Shown here in pieces: positions 24,323 to 29,508 of a stretch of 64,000 nt of DNA. Every line of letters begins with the position of its first letter. Position 1 is the first letter of the stretch. The position numbers and the translations under genes were made by a program. Location: positions 248,001 through 312,000 of the forward strand of contig NZ_JAFLNC010000001.1 in NCBI RefSeq assembly GCF_017313765.1, read 5' to 3'. The notes below the pieces were generated by a model. That model ran no database searches and was not told where the DNA came from. It worked only from the letters and a program-made list of their open reading frames with translations. The DNA is from Sneathiella sedimenti. Its GTDB lineage: Bacteria; Pseudomonadota; Alphaproteobacteria; Sneathiellales; Sneathiellaceae.

Positions 24323-25393
24323 ATGTCCGATGATTCAGCCCAATTTTCGGGAACAATGGAAGTAAGAGAGCGTCACAAGTTCGACGTTGCGGCATTAGAA
24401 AGCTATCTCAAAAAGAATATTGTTGGATTCACGGGACCGCTTAAGGTCTCGCAATTCAAAGGCGGGCAATCCAATCCCAGCTATATGCTTGAGACCCCGG
24501 ATCGCAGATATGTGCTTCGGCGCAAGCCGCCCGGAAAACTTCTTCCCTCCGCACACGCGGTTGACCGTGAGTACCGGGTTCTGACGGCTCTTGCCAAAAC
24601 TGATGTTCCTGTACCAAAAACCTATTGCCTTTGTGAAGACGAATCCGTTATCGGTACGATGTTCTACGTCATGGATTTTCTGAACGGGGATATTGAATGG
24701 GACCCCTCCTTGCCAGGATATTCAAAAGCGAACCGGGTTGCTGTTTTTGATAGCATGAACGCCGCCATGGCGGCATTGCATCAGGTTGATTATAAAGCCG
24801 TCGGCCTTGAAAGTTTTGGCAAGCCAACAGATTATCTCGCGCGCCAGATCAGCCGCTGGACGAAACAGTACCGTGCATCTGAAACTGAGTCCATCGAGGC
24901 AATGGACAACCTGATGGCCTGGCTTCCCGATAATATCCCACCCGGCGATGAAACCGCGATTGTTCACGGAGATTATCGCCTCGACAACACGGTTCTAGAT
25001 AAAACATCCCATCGGGTTATGGGTATACTCGATTGGGAGCTGGCAACACTCGGCCATCCTATTGCGGATTTCTCCTATCACTGCATGACCTGGCGGTTGG
25101 AGCCGGAATTATTCCGGGGCCTGAACGGCCTGGACCTTCGGGCGCTTGGTATCCCGACAGAGGAGCAATATGTCCAGGCATATTGTGAACGAACCGGCCG
25201 TGACGGAATCGAACATTGGGATTTTTATGCTGCTTATAATATGTTTCGCCTCGCAGCAATCCTGCAGGGCATTGTCGGCCGGGTGAAAGACGGAACAGCG
25301 TCCAACAAGAACGCTGCAGATGTTGCGGTTCGTGTTAAACCGTTGGCACTACGCGGCTGGGAACAGGCCGAGAAAATTATCAAGGGCGTGTAA
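24323..25393 (+). CDS. APH-fold phosphotransferase, ACAD10/11 kinase-domain type (copy 1)
   Basis: A 356-residue aminoglycoside-phosphotransferase-fold kinase. Catalytic block HGDYRLDN at about 215-222 (Asp217 expected catalytic) and the metal motif DWE at 237-239; the N-lobe has the FKGGQSNPSY loop and RRKPPGKLLPSAHAVDREYRV. This long N-lobe signature is characteristic of the kinase domain fused to the dehydrogenase in eukaryotic ACAD10/ACAD11 and of LvaA in Pseudomonas levulinate catabolism, which phosphorylates 4-hydroxyacyl-CoA. It is followed by a paralogue at 25444 and lies near an ACAD11-like dehydrogenase at 28306. The substrate is inferred from these relatives, not seen. Confidence 0.88.
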   Translation: MSDDSAQFSGTMEVRERHKFDVAALESYLKKNIVGFTGPLKVSQFKGGQSNPSYMLETPDRRYVLRRKPPGKLLPSAHAVDREYRVLTALAKTDVPVPKTYCLCEDESVIGTMFYVMDFLNGDIEWDPSLPGYSKANRVAVFDSMNAAMAALHQVDYKAVGLESFGKPTDYLARQISRWTKQYRASETESIEAMDNLMAWLPDNIPPGDETAIVHGDYRLDNTVLDKTSHRVMGILDWELATLGHPIADFSYHCMTWRLEPELFRGLNGLDLRALGIPTEEQYVQAYCERTGRDGIEHWDFYAAYNMFRLAAILQGIVGRVKDGTASNKNAADVAVRVKPLALRGWEQAEKIIKGV

Positions 25394-25443
25394 TACCGCA
25401 TCCTCTCCCAATAAAAAACAAGAATAGGCTAAAAGGGAAATTC

Positions 25444-26487
25444 ATGAGCGACGGAGTAGAAATCATTCCTGTTCGGGAAATGCACAAGTTCAATGAAGGT
25501 GCGCTTTTCGACTACCTGACTGAAAATGTGGATGGCTTCAAGGGGCCACTGCAGATCAGCCAGTTCCAGGGCGGCCAGTCCAACCCGACATTCCTGCTGC
25601 ATACGCCTGAACGGGATTATGTGATGCGGAAAAAACCGCCGGGAAACCTCCTCCCTTCTGCCCATGCGGTTGACCGGGAGTACAGGGTTATTTCTGCACT
25701 CCAGCAGACCGATGTTCCCGTCCCTCGCACCTTTTGCCTTTGTGAGGATGACAGCATTATCGGAACTGCCTTTTATATCATGGAGAAGGTGGACGGACGC
25801 ATTATCCTGTCGCCCGAGATTCAGGGCTCAGAGCCGAGTATGCGGGCTGCAATCTACGATTCACTGAATGACGCTCTGGCCAAGCTGCACAATGTCGATA
25901 TTGATGCAGTTGGACTTTCTGATTTCGGCAAGAAAGGGAACTATTTCGAGCGACAGATCGGCCGCTGGACGAAACAATATCGTGCCTCCCAAACCGACAA
26001 TCTGGAGGCAATGGAGAACCTGATCAAATGGCTCCCGGAAAATTTGCCGGACAGCGATGACAGCACCATCGTCCACGGGGATTACCGGCTTGGAAATGTT
26101 ATTGTGCATCCGACAAAGCCGGAAGTTGTCGCCGTCCTTGATTGGGAGCTTTCCACCATCGGGCATCCGCTCTCCGATCTCGCGTACAATTGCATGAATT
26201 ATCACTATATGCATCCGCGCAACGGCGGACTTGTCGGGGTCGATTTCAAGGCCACAGGCATTCCGACAGAACAAGAATATATTGACGCGTACTGCAAACG
26301 CACTGGCCGGGCCGGGATTGACAACTGGGAATTTTACCTGGCTTTCTCCCTCTTCCGCACGGCCGCGATTGTTCAGGGTGTCTATAAGCGCGGACTAGAC
26401 GGAAATGCCAGTTCAAAGGTCGGCGAGGAGTATGCGGTATTCACCAACATGCTCGCCACTCTCGGCTGGCAGAAGGTCGATAGCTAA
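25444..26487 (+). CDS. APH-fold phosphotransferase, ACAD10/11 kinase-domain type (copy 2)
   Basis: A 347-residue paralogue of the preceding gene, similar over the whole length and probably from tandem duplication. HGDYRLGN is at about 211-218 (Asp213) and DWE at about 233-235; the N-lobe reads FQGGQSNPTF and RKKPPGNLLPSAHAVDREYRV. The last position of the Brenner motif stays Asn while the residue before it is Gly instead of Asp. The linker between N-lobe and catalytic loop differs most between the two copies (FLNGDIEWDP versus KVDGRIILSP), so they may handle different chain lengths. The gap between the genes is 50 bp. Confidence 0.88.
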   Translation: MSDGVEIIPVREMHKFNEGALFDYLTENVDGFKGPLQISQFQGGQSNPTFLLHTPERDYVMRKKPPGNLLPSAHAVDREYRVISALQQTDVPVPRTFCLCEDDSIIGTAFYIMEKVDGRIILSPEIQGSEPSMRAAIYDSLNDALAKLHNVDIDAVGLSDFGKKGNYFERQIGRWTKQYRASQTDNLEAMENLIKWLPENLPDSDDSTIVHGDYRLGNVIVHPTKPEVVAVLDWELSTIGHPLSDLAYNCMNYHYMHPRNGGLVGVDFKATGIPTEQEYIDAYCKRTGRAGIDNWEFYLAFSLFRTAAIVQGVYKRGLDGNASSKVGEEYAVFTNMLATLGWQKVDS

Positions 26488-26595
26488 CTAAAATCTGTCG
26501 CAGACAAGTTTCTGAATATTAAAAAAATCTGATATCGTCGTTTCAGTTGCAAATTTTAATGCTTTCGGCGCCCGCGGGGCTTTGGAGGTCGGCAA

Positions 26596-27924
26596 ATGAA
26601 ACGCGATATCTTTTCTGGCCGCAAAATCTCGGCTGTTCCGTCTGCATCTGCCCGGAAACCAGACGGAACACCCGCAGGTAACGACCGTGTCGAGATTGGA
26701 CCAACGCAGCTCGCATTCGACGAATGGACCGCCGCTGGCCTCAATATTCCCGATCTCGCAATTATGCGTAGCCAACGCCTGGATCGCCTTGTAAGGGCCC
26801 TTCAAGCAAGGGACTATGGCGGGATTCTGATGTATGATCCACTCAACATCCGTTTTGCCTCTGATACGACAAACATGCAGCTCTGGGCAGCCCACAACCC
26901 ATTTCGCGCCTGCCTCGTCCTGGCGGATGGATATATGGTTATCTGGGATTTCGGCGACAGTGATCTGCTGACAGCCTTCAATCCGCTGGTCCGCGAGACA
27001 AGGTCCGGCGCCTCCTTCTTCTACTTTACAAGCGGTGATAAATCTGTAGAAAACGCGGAGCGGTTCGCAAGGCAGATCGATGACCTGATGCGGGAACACG
27101 CAGGTGGGAACCGCCGCCTCGCGGTCGACAAAATACAGATTCATGGCCTGCGCGCGCTCGAGGGGTTAGGGCTACAGGTTTTGGATGGCGAGGAGGTTAC
27201 GGAAAAAACCCGCGCCATCAAGCAGTCGGAAGAAATCAAGGCCCTTCGCTGCGCTGTTCATGCCGCCGAAAAGTCAATTCATGAAATGCAGCAGTATACG
27301 GTGCCCGGCGTCACAGAAAACGATGTCTGGGCGATCCTGCATGCGGAGAATATAAAGCGTGGCGGTGAATGGATCGAAACCCGGCTGCTTGCGTCTGGCC
27401 CTCGCACAAATCCCTGGTTTCAGGAATGCGGTCCGCGGGTGATCGGTAATAACGAACTACTGGCCTTCGACACGGACCTTATCGGCTGCTTCGGCATGTG
27501 CGCGGATATTTCCCGCACATGGTTTGTCGGAGATGGAACACCGACGGCGGAGCAGAAGCGGCTCTACCAATATGCCTATGAGCATATTCAACAAAATATG
27601 GCACTTTTAACGCCGGGGAGGCCTTTTAAGGAGATTGTCTTTGGTGGACATCTACTGTCAGACGAATTCGTAAACTCCCGGTACTCCGTCAAAATGCATG
27701 GGGTCGGCCTGTGCGATGAATGGCCTCATATCGCGTATCCGGAAGATTATCATGAAGGTGCGTTCGACTACGAGCTGGTGCCGGGAATGTCGATATGCGT
27801 TGAGGCGTATATTGGCGCAGAAGGCGGCGCAGAAGGGGTAAAGCTGGAAGAGCAGGTGGTCATCACCGATGACGGCTATGAGAATATAACCCGATATTCT
27901 TTTGAGGATATCCTGCTCACCTAG
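26596..27924 (+). CDS. dddP: DMSP lyase DddP (M24 metallopeptidase fold)
   Basis: A 442-residue M24-fold protein best explained as DddP, which cleaves dimethylsulfoniopropionate to dimethyl sulfide and acrylate with a two-metal (iron) centre. The whole chain follows the DddP pattern (RVEIGPTQLAF near 31, NMQLW near 93, WIETRLLASGPR near 259). The metal/catalytic residues fall at Asp292, Asp294, Asp304, His368, Asp374, Glu403 and Glu418; each is exactly three positions before the number I recall for Roseobacter DddP (295, 297, 307, 371, 377, 406, 421). A true prolidase would not keep the DddP Asp374 in GLCDEWP. A TGGAGGT Shine-Dalgarno lies about 8 bases before the ATG. No dddQ/L/W or acrylate genes are adjacent. 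Confidence 0.88.
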   Translation: MKRDIFSGRKISAVPSASARKPDGTPAGNDRVEIGPTQLAFDEWTAAGLNIPDLAIMRSQRLDRLVRALQARDYGGILMYDPLNIRFASDTTNMQLWAAHNPFRACLVLADGYMVIWDFGDSDLLTAFNPLVRETRSGASFFYFTSGDKSVENAERFARQIDDLMREHAGGNRRLAVDKIQIHGLRALEGLGLQVLDGEEVTEKTRAIKQSEEIKALRCAVHAAEKSIHEMQQYTVPGVTENDVWAILHAENIKRGGEWIETRLLASGPRTNPWFQECGPRVIGNNELLAFDTDLIGCFGMCADISRTWFVGDGTPTAEQKRLYQYAYEHIQQNMALLTPGRPFKEIVFGGHLLSDEFVNSRYSVKMHGVGLCDEWPHIAYPEDYHEGAFDYELVPGMSICVEAYIGAEGGAEGVKLEEQVVITDDGYENITRYSFEDILLT

Positions 27925-28151
27925 TGATTTTCAGCATCTTCAATTCTGAGATTTGCCCAGCGCTTGAAACATTCTGTCGGTTCCATAACCAATCCTGCAG
28001 CGTCGCCAAGGCCGGAAACCGGCTGCAAGCCCGCATGGGCCGTCAGGTCCTGGGTCAGCCATTCACAGGGATCAAGGCTTTCATACCGATATAAAAATCC
28101 GGCGACAATCACGATAATGCCCAGCATTATCCAACCCAATAACTTGATCAT
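27921..28151 (-). CDS. Small single-helix membrane protein of unknown function
   Basis: A 76-residue frame with an N-terminal hydrophobic helix (about 4-21) and a soluble tail with two cysteines (Cys33 in DPCEWL and Cys62 in TECFKRW), which could form a periplasmic disulfide. Its stop codon overlaps the dddP stop in convergent orientation. There is no clear Shine-Dalgarno, so it could be spurious, but the composition is protein-like. Its likely position is between the terminator at 28250 and dddP. Confidence 0.5.
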   Translation of the reverse strand: MIKLLGWIMLGIIVIVAGFLYRYESLDPCEWLTQDLTAHAGLQPVSGLGDAAGLVMEPTECFKRWANLRIEDAENH

Positions 28152-28249
28152 TCAAGAGACCCAATATTACTTCGCTGTAAACAGGAACAAGCCTGTATAT
28201 AGGAAAAGCGGAACTTCATGCTATTGAAAAATCTGCACAGGAGAAAAAG

Positions 28250-28275
28250 AAAGGCTTCCCCGAAGGGAAGCCTTT
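28250..28275 (-). terminator. Intrinsic terminator of the acyl-CoA dehydrogenase gene
   Basis: Perfect 11-bp stem (AAAGGCTTCCC / GGGAAGCCTTT) with a 4-base loop, 31 bp past the ACAD stop. On the minus strand it is followed by a T-rich run (CTTTTTCTCC). A strong Rho-independent terminator. Confidence 0.85.
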
Positions 28276-28305
28276 CAAACTAGCTGATTTCTGCAGAGTT
28301 CAAGA

Positions 28306-29508
28306 TCAGTCGTATTTTTTGAGTTCCAACCGGCCGATCTGGTTGCGATGCACTTCATCAGGTCCGTCGGCAAGACGCAAGGTCCGTGAATGAGCATAAG
28401 CAAAGGCGAGACCGAAGTCATCACTCACGCCACCAGCTCCGTGTGCCTGGATCGCCCAGTCAATGATTTTGCCGGTAATATTCGGTGCAACGACCTTGAT
28501 CATGGCAATTTCCGCCTTGGCTTCCTTGTTGCCAACCGTATCCATCATATAGGCTGCCTTCAGGGTAAGAAGCCGTGCTTGTTCGATCATCGCACGGGAT
28601 TCCGCAATGCGTTCCAGAGTGACCGTTTGCTCGGCAATGGGTTTCCCGAAGGCAACACGTGACTTAACCCGCTTGCACATCTTCTCCAATGCCCGTTCGG
28701 CAACACCGATCTGGCGCATGCAATGGTGAATACGTCCCGGGCCAAGACGCCCCTGAGCGATTTCGAAGCCGCGGCCTTCGCCGAGCAGCATATGATCCGC
28801 CGGCACGCGAACATCCTTGAATTCCACTTCCGCATGGCCGTGTGGTGCATCATCATACCCAAAAACCGGCAGGAAGCGCTTTACATTAATGCCGGGCGTA
28901 TCCATGGGCACGATAATCATTGACTGCTGCTTGTAACGCGACGCCGTCTTATCCGTTTTACCCATGAAAATCAGAACTTTACAACGCGGGTCATAGGCAC
29001 CTGACGTCCACCACTTGGTACCGTTGATGACATATTCATCGCCGTCACGGGTAATTTCTGACTCGATATTTGTTGCGTCCGAAGAAGCAACGGCGGGTTC
29101 AGTCATGGCAAACGCTGAACGGATCTCCCCTTCAAGCAAGGGCTTCAACCAGCGTTCCTTCAGCTCTTCATTTGCATAGCGTTCGAACACCTCCATATTC
29201 CCGGTGTCCGGCGCCGAGCAGTTGAAAACTTCCGGAGCAAAGCTGACCCGCCCCATGATTTCACAGAGCGGCGCATATTCGAGATTGGTGAGGCCTGCAC
29301 CACGGTCACTTTCTGGCAGAAACAGGTTCCAGAGCCCGGCTGCCTTGGCCTTTGCTTTCAGCTCTTCGACAATGGCCGTTGGCTGCCAGCGGTCTCCCTC
29401 ATCCACCTGGTCATAAAATAACTGCTCATTGGGATAGACATGTTCATCCATAAAGGCCTGCACCCTCGCCTGCAGTTCCTTCACCTTGTCTGAATATTCG
29501 AAGATCAT
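28306..29508 (-). CDS. ACAD11-like acyl-CoA dehydrogenase
   Basis: FAD-dependent acyl-CoA dehydrogenase of 400 residues, full length with all three ACAD domains. The flavin/substrate loop [15 protein letters not shown] is near residue 133, [14 protein letters not shown] near 162, and the presumed catalytic Glu is Glu385 in ADGPDEVHR, the position used by ACAD10/11-type enzymes. It resembles the dehydrogenase half of ACAD11 and LvaC, which acts on 4-phosphoacyl-CoA made by the partner kinase. It is monocistronic with its own terminator. An AGGAA box sits about 8 bases before the ATG. It is close to the two kinase genes but on the other strand, so it is controlled separately. Confidence 0.92.

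Follow-up and report, generated by a model that had tools for sequence, protein, structure and literature searches.

The window analysed here, a stretch of 64,000 nucleotides from Sneathiella sedimenti (contig NZ_JAFLNC010000001.1), carries genes for two APH-fold kinases close to a gene for an enzyme with the acyl-CoA dehydrogenase fold. The first kinase gene, K1 (24323..25393, plus strand; 356 aa), recognised as an open reading frame matching the Pfam APH model, is preceded by purD at a gap of 15 nt, and is followed by the second, K2 (25444..26487, plus strand; 347 aa); both products are of the ACAD10/11 kinase-domain type and belong to separate lineages. Next on the same strand comes dddP (26596..27924), which encodes a DMSP lyase of the M24 fold according to its matches to NF043017 and 4rzy. 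The minus strand holds a gene for a 76-aa protein (27921..28151) with an N-terminal membrane segment, as judged by eye, that is nearly restricted to the genus Sneathiella, and the gene for a 400-aa ACAD11/LvaC-type enzyme (28306..29508), presumed to be a 4-phosphoacyl-CoA dehydratase, with tadA upstream of it. Since K1 and K2 are convergent with the dehydratase gene, they do not share one operon or transcription unit with it here. No tRNA or known Rfam RNA was found in the window. The preliminary description of this DNA had placed both kinases and the dehydrogenase at the correct open reading frames, and this part of its gene inventory stands, but it overlooked dddP, the 76-aa gene and the convergent layout. 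Its statement that no other Lva genes are present agrees with a scan of 30 window proteins, among which the acyl-CoA synthetase, the one looked for, is absent.

Both kinases score far above the Pfam APH cut-off of 23.2 bits (K1, 183.0 bits; K2, 181.8 bits), and in sequence searches their nearest solved relatives are 3dxp (463.7 bits for K1 and 400.2 bits for K2) and the kinase domain of mouse ACAD11 (284.6 and 292.0 bits, respectively). K1 and K2 share 53% identity; with the kinase segment of mouse ACAD11, K1 shares 41.7% and K2 43.1%. The best fold match of the K2 model is likewise 3dxp (TM 0.86). The catalytic Asp and helper Asn of ACAD11 (D220 and N225) correspond to D217 and N222 of K1, which also has R82, E83 and R174, and both are found in K2 as well; across the alignment, 14 of 15 K2 rows keep the Asp and 13 of 15 the Asn. 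In addition, R174 and R82 (K1 numbering), the counterparts of the CoA-contacting Arg176 and of the Arg beside the alpha-C Glu in ACAD11, are kept in all 34 rows of the K1 group, counted with nine outlying rows omitted, and in all 15 K2 rows. The latter Arg was matched through the paper's description, as the published number R86 is off this residue by residue count. The structures 8v3u and 8v3v bear active-site mutations of the kinase and ACAD domains, and the kinase position mutated in 8v3u aligns with an Asp in both K1 and K2.

The 400-aa protein matches the N-terminal, middle and C-terminal acyl-CoA dehydrogenase domains of Pfam. Its best solved relatives are 4hr3 (482.6 bits), human ACAD11 (2wbi, 477 bits) and mouse ACAD11 (8v3u, 472 bits), and its likeness to ACAD11 is specific, because the next entry, 5ol2, scores only 143.6 bits. 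R254, R259, H262, R265 and D381 of the window enzyme, invariant in nine of nine aligned rows, correspond at a constant offset of 372 to R626, R631, H634, R637 and D753 of ACAD11; in ACAD11, D753 is the catalytic Asp and the other residues hold the 4-phosphate (PMC12440821). The active-site position mutated in the ACAD domain of 8v3u/8v3v likewise aligns with an Asp here. The earlier label of an ACAD11-like dehydrogenase is thus upheld, with the acyl- and phosphate-binding residues and the catalytic Asp of ACAD11 all kept. Three further enzymes of ACAD11 type are encoded in the host genome and share these residues, so that the window dehydratase is the presumed partner of both kinases by gene position only.

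Across 190 alphaproteobacterial genomes, kinase and dehydratase occur together in 66 and are both missing from 119, with the kinase alone in four and the dehydratase alone in one (Fisher p 5e-45, uncorrected for kinship). The preliminary description had proposed looking for such a link, and it is borne out, with five exceptions: the dehydratase is missing from 4 of 70 kinase-positive genomes and the kinase from 1 of 67 dehydratase-positive ones. Of the 66 genomes with both, 39 have the two genes as neighbours, at most 10.3 kb apart and in 23 cases convergent, and the other 27 do not; for this count, places on the same contig were chosen by eye from match listings, a second look at which yielded no additional pair, and the distances were scripted. 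A second sample, the best 80 of 594 named loci and partly from the same organisms, has the dehydratase within the fetched flank at 37 loci, 19 of them with both genes on the same strand, and in 14 of these no more than 96 nt separate the end of the kinase from the dehydratase that follows. For the remaining 43 loci the flank fetched shows no dehydratase of this type, and only part of them lie on short contigs. On a Sphingobium plasmid the pair comes after a 3-hydroxyacyl-CoA dehydrogenase gene. Within the genus, genomes G008 (98% complete) and G017 (56%) have the dehydratase and no kinase match, and G015 and G023 have the kinases on one contig and the dehydratase on another, the kinase contig of G023 being 4.8 kb long. 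Read by eye, the other alphaproteobacterial loci have no apparent pathway-like genes between kinase and dehydratase; the commonest intervening open reading frame encodes a large protein (11 loci), by eye a chemotaxis receptor, followed by GST-like, aminotransferase-like and other products. A gene fusion was considered for one bacterial locus (G034:C12) and rejected, as the dehydratase and the kinase there lie in separate open frames, of 778 aa and 528 aa, respectively; among the loci checked, neither gene was seen as an over-long open reading frame. DUF6285 (PF19802), which we take to be possibly LvaB, is present in 44 of the 190 genomes and has no match in the host genome.

K1 and K2 are old, long-separated lineages, not a recent tandem copy, a point that the preliminary description had overlooked. 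A single clade unites the K2 copies of at least six families; it lies within the broader diversity of K1-type kinases, and mouse ACAD11 falls in it or next to it. A duplication confined to Sneathiella is rejected (p-AU 0.002, tested on a quick tree). The kinase trees were built from hand-chosen rows, 98 in one and 59 in the other, the latter omitting, among others, 9o56 and the long rows L056_7493, L059, L152, L153 and L155. In the 59-row tree, mouse ACAD11, on a long branch, groups with K2 at a support of 99/98; a K2 clade that excludes it fits slightly better and is not rejected (p-AU 0.79). Mammalian ACAD11 falls outside the 37-row group that contains the window enzyme in the dehydratase tree, which argues against a straightforward derivation of the fused gene from this locus. 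Purifying selection is indicated by dN/dS, and K2 is frameshifted in one genus genome (G009).

In mammals, a kinase and a dehydrogenase-like enzyme fused in one protein open 4-hydroxy fatty acids to breakdown. The locus resembles mammalian ACAD10/ACAD11 in its type of kinase and in that of its dehydratase, whose residues for phosphate binding and catalysis are identical, whereas a single fused chain there is replaced here by three genes, including two for kinases, on opposite strands. As the preliminary description had it, this is a split ACAD10/11-like module, with kinases and dehydrogenase as separate genes. The same split is found in LvaA and LvaC of the Pseudomonas putida lva operon, which serves a levulinic acid route, but there with a single kinase in a dedicated operon. 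According to PMC11342911, LvaC matches the ACAD domains in ACAD11 and ACAD10 at 56-62% identity, and LvaA is only 29% identical to the ACAD10/11 kinases; by this published figure, it is less similar than K1 and K2 are to ACAD11. Betaproteobacterial loci also pair a K1-like kinase with an ACAD11-type dehydratase, but with a single kinase that usually sits, in the same orientation, directly ahead of the dehydratase. The fetched loci of this kind show no K2, and several of them lack a dehydratase in the flank. 3dxp is a kinase of this K1-like betaproteobacterial type, from Ralstonia eutropha JMP134. Kinase-dehydratase enzymes of Burkholderia were tested in PMC11342911, which reports that these orthologues substituted for the ACAD10 domains in vitro.

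Together, these observations suggest, with a probability of about 0.8, that the locus is a split bacterial form of ACAD10/ACAD11 into which dddP was inserted later. K1 and K2 would each use ATP to phosphorylate 4-hydroxyacyl-CoAs at the 4-hydroxyl, and the ACAD11-type enzyme, by analogy with ACAD11, LvaC and the Burkholderia enzymes, would use FAD and Asp381 to strip the phosphate off, giving a 2-enoyl-CoA that may enter beta-oxidation. One dehydratase would thus be fed by two kinases, probably because their substrates differ, our guess being in enantiomer, chain length or branching. A further-reaching and doubtful version holds that this is an ancient two-kinase ACAD10/11 route in Alphaproteobacteria, in which K1 and K2 bring different 4-hydroxyacyl-CoAs, such as the R and S forms, to one dehydratase, and that the eukaryotic ACAD11 kinase came from the K2 lineage. 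The ACAD10 kinase prefers the R form.

One may argue that the substrate of the kinases is a different hydroxylated acyl-CoA or a steroid side chain, in which phosphorylation activates for elimination a hydroxyl other than the C4 one of a plain fatty acyl-CoA. After 3dxp, the K2 model most resembles Rv3168 (TM 0.71) and the 25-hydroxysteroid kinase 9fsg/9ft5 (TM 0.70), full-length ACAD11 is absent among the 50 fold matches listed for it, the Sphingobium pair has P450, alpha/beta hydrolase and SDR genes in its vicinity, and the three other ACAD11-type paralogues leave room for other substrates. However, 9fsg is a weak sequence match to K2 (39 bits) next to ACAD11 (292 bits), and the conserved CoA-contacting Arg residues of both kinases run contrary to this reading, which we regard as unlikely. 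That APH is the Pfam name, and that NCBIfam models for APH(3') and Mph match weakly, might suggest plain aminoglycoside or macrolide resistance kinases that by chance adjoin an ordinary beta-oxidation acyl-CoA dehydrogenase. This is barely credible, as these matches reach 19.9-48 bits against cut-offs of 205-650, the window enzyme has an Asp where 5ol2 has Glu together with the HHCMR helix, and co-occurrence and neighbourhood of kinase and dehydratase are conserved in the class. The kinases group with the ACAD11 kinase and away from the drug-resistance models, a question raised in the preliminary description, by bit scores and in trees that include mouse ACAD11, on its long branch, and no drug-resistance APH row.

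The position of dddP between K2 and the dehydrogenase raises the alternative that the cluster serves DMSP or acrylate use, DddP yielding acrylate and the kinases and dehydrogenase processing a derived CoA ester. The dddP product is above the equivalog cut-off of NF043017 (692.6 against 600 bits), matches 4rzy at 586 bits and keeps the Asp replaced by Asn in 4s01, which we take to be the catalytic base of DddP; moreover, the genome encodes an AcuI/YhdH enzyme above cut-off and one BCCT transporter. Against such a role, dddP occupies this interval in 9 of 24 genus genomes, is absent from 12 of the 20 loci of the genus that combine kinases with a dehydratase, and was not found beside the kinases at any fetched locus outside the genus. 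A DMSP role is thus very improbable, and dddP is probably an inserted guest outside the pathway.

The 4-hydroxy fatty acid route was ascribed to ACAD10/ACAD11 as late as 2024-2025. The split kinase-dehydratase form is already known from LvaA/LvaC and Burkholderia, and the conserved kinase pair is the new part. The split form is frequent among the Alphaproteobacteria sampled, its near-strict co-occurrence of kinase and dehydratase could act as a genomic marker, and the second kinase lineage has accompanied the first in several families. Two related kinases with one dehydratase offer a means to find the basis of substrate choice in this enzyme family.

Two APH-fold kinase genes, K1 (24323-25393, plus strand) and K2 (25444-26487, plus strand), stand in tandem in the window of this 3.58 Mb genome, K1 starting 15 nt past purD and K2 50 nt past K1. 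They are followed by dddP (26596-27924, plus strand), by a 76-aa gene on the minus strand (27921-28151) whose stop codon overlaps that of dddP, and, downstream of tadA and on the strand opposite to the kinases, by an acyl-CoA dehydrogenase gene (28306-29508, minus strand), whose ACAD11/LvaC-type product is called the dehydratase below, after its presumed function. The preliminary description, of two kinases and an ACAD11-like dehydrogenase, was right about these three genes and incomplete in omitting the two that lie in between. In phmmer searches of solved structures, K1 and K2 match the Ralstonia eutropha kinase 3dxp (463.7 and 400.2 bits, respectively), mouse ACAD11 (284.6 and 292.0) and 9o56 (196.8 and 203.4); their identity to the kinase segment of mouse ACAD11 is 41.7% and 43.1%, and to each other 53.3%. 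NCBIfam models for drug-resistance APH and Mph kinases give 19.9-48 bits, against cut-offs of 205-650. In the alignment, both proteins keep the Asp (D220) and Asn (N225) of the ACAD11 kinase and the Arg residues with which it contacts CoA. K2 was modelled with AlphaFold2 from six input sequences (pLDDT 76.7, pTM 0.78); the model is closest in fold to 3dxp (TM 0.86), followed by a 25-hydroxysteroid kinase (TM 0.70) and Rv3168 (TM 0.71), and full-length ACAD11 is absent from the 50 fold matches listed.

The dehydratase scores 482.6 bits to the structure 4hr3, 477 to human and 472 to mouse ACAD11, and the next structure reaches 143.6. In ACAD11, R626, H634 and R637 hold the 4-phosphate, R631 orients the acyl chain and D753 is used as well (PMC12440821). 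All five are found in the window enzyme at one constant offset, and their equivalents are invariant across nine aligned rows. Most likely, by analogy, the locus would carry out phosphorylation of 4-hydroxyacyl-CoA and removal of the phosphate: K1 or K2 would phosphorylate the substrate, and the dehydratase would then eliminate phosphate to give 2-enoyl-CoA, feeding beta-oxidation. In vitro, this two-step chemistry has been reported for ACAD10/ACAD11 (PMC12440821, PMC11342911) and for a Burkholderia kinase and dehydratase (PMC11342911), and that of LvaA/LvaC is cited there from earlier work.

Kinase and dehydratase co-occur across the genomes of the class. Among 190 genomes of Alphaproteobacteria (profile E up to 1e-60 for the kinase and 1e-120 for the dehydratase), 70 have the kinase and 67 the dehydratase, with both in 66 and neither in 119 (Fisher p = 5e-45, uncorrected for kinship). 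The kinase occurs alone in four (G059, G082, G139 and G210) and the dehydratase alone in one, G030, where another search gave a weaker kinase match. Both genes share a contig, at most 10.3 kb apart, in 39 of the 66 and do not in 27; the 39 comprise 23 convergent, 14 same-strand and 2 divergent arrangements. A dehydratase of 55% identity or more lies in the fetched flank of 37 of the best 80 of 594 candidate named loci, on the same strand as the kinase in 19, convergent with it in 16 and divergent in 2; in 14 of the 19 same-strand loci, no more than 96 nt separate the end of the kinase match from the dehydratase. The other 43 of these 80 have no dehydratase in the fetched flank; some of their contigs are short, and some, including the betaproteobacterial L069 and L070, span 10 kb of flank on each side. 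On plasmid pMSHV of Sphingobium herbicidovorans the pair comes after a 3-hydroxyacyl-CoA dehydrogenase gene, and an incomplete gene table for Cupriavidus pHG1 lists no kinase within 8 kb. In other Alphaproteobacteria (L059 8372-10582, L152 and L153), remoter kinases (35-36% identical) adjoin dehydrogenases of 35-66% identity, possibly applying the same logic to other substrate classes.

Within the genus, kinase matches occur in 22 of 24 genomes, always with K1 and K2 adjacent; G008 and G017 have the dehydratase and no kinase match in the genus search. The dehydratase lies convergent on the same stretch in 20 of the 22 and on a different contig in G015 and G023. A frameshift splits K2 in G009 (L047), where the K1 match is full-length; assembly error and true loss are both possible. 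Tandem pairs occur in 9 of the 70 kinase-positive genomes of the class, read from the listing, three of them from this genus, and in 6 of the best 80 of 594 named loci, which are partly the same organisms.

K2 is an old lineage nested within K1-type diversity and not a recent copy of K1, as seen from the K2 clade and the scattered placements of K1. The 15 K2 copies in the careful 59-row tree, which come from Sneathiella, families f5, f10, f67, f93 and f121, and MAGs of Rhodobiaceae, Ferrovibrio and two other Alphaproteobacteria, all fall with mouse ACAD11 into a single clade (support 99/98); this clade recurs in a quick tree of 98 rows (support 97). Its neighbours are single kinases from Rokubacteria and two genomes of the class. 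The K1 copies fall outside it, and not all together: the Sneathiella, f67, f93 and Ferrovibrio copies belong to a larger group that includes the K2 clade, 3dxp and kinases of Betaproteobacteria, and those of f10, f121, L078, L089 and L093 to a group of their own. A K1-K2 duplication confined to Sneathiella was rejected, the forced grouping costing 69 log units (p-AU 0.0019). In G027, K1 and a K2-type kinase are on separate contigs. Seven sites separate the two groups (one residue at 75% or more in each). At one of them, the residue preceding the helper Asn is Asp in 33 of 34 K1-group rows, and Glu (12) or Gly (3, including the window K2) in the 15 K2 rows; at another, the position of K1 Trp126 is Arg in 12 of these 15 and Leu in the window K2. 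Both genes are under purifying selection within the genus, with dN/dS of 0.024-0.038 for K1 (3 of 9 comparisons estimable) and 0.026-0.076 for K2 (6 of 9), dS being saturated in the others and above 1 in several of those estimated. The long branch of mouse ACAD11, the sole eukaryotic row, joins the tree within the K2 clade or next to it. In the dehydratase tree, mammalian ACAD11 falls outside the group holding the locus enzyme; only on a bold reading would the ACAD11 kinase descend from the K2 lineage.

The product of dddP exceeds the NCBIfam DddP cut-off (692.6 bits against 600) and scores 586 bits to 4rzy. The interval from K2 to the dehydratase holds the gene in 9 of the 24 genomes of the genus, counting G008 via its contig C575, and its presence on the K1 and dehydratase tree of 20 genus loci (8 with, 12 without) requires three changes, gain or loss. 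Since the outer genus group (8 rows) and the non-genus loci fetched all lack it, dddP is probably a guest at the locus. When 11 genus loci without dddP were compared, all had a recognisable counterpart of the 381 nt to the right of dddP, where the 76-aa gene lies, and none matched the 108 nt to its left. DMSP cleavage by the host is plausible from gene content, as the genome encodes an AcuI/YhdH enzyme (436.8 bits, cut-off 297.25) and one BCCT transporter; a literature search for dddP together with Sneathiella found no paper. The 76-aa protein has an N-terminal membrane segment, judged by eye, a 'SLDPCEW'-like motif and no Pfam or NCBIfam match above cut-off; 16 non-genus genomes yielded a single weak match. 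Of the 24 genus genomes, 23 carry its gene: 20 have it between K2 and the dehydratase, G015 and G023 have it adjoining K2, and G008 has it between dddP and the dehydratase.

The window's own genome has eight Pfam-APH matches. It also has a third ACAD10/11-type kinase (L060, G000:C4:460533-461543), 47% identical to K1 and outside both K1 and K2 in the 98-row tree, with no dehydratase in the 9.5 kb ahead of it; it lies near a contig end, preceded by genes that by eye resemble those of a TetR regulator and a TRAP transporter. Three more ACAD11-type paralogues (L156-L158; C6:3714-4916, C3:184379-185584 and C2:326714-327901) each carry the Arg/His residues and the Asp. The C6 copy adjoins LysR-type regulator, thioesterase-like and MaoC-like ORFs (read by eye). 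With these extra enzymes and the third kinase, the chemistry is probably used more than once in this genome, and given the same paralogues we infer the partners of K1 and K2 from position.

The split bacterial kinase and dehydratase are already published (PMC11342911 and PMC12440821, which cite Rand et al. 2017). The two-kinase form, absent from the titles and abstract openings searched, a coverage that mostly excludes subscription papers, appears new as a variant of that split arrangement. The ACAD10 kinase forms about fourfold more product from R than from S (PMC11342911), and on that ground one may guess that K1 and K2 would serve different enantiomers or chain lengths.
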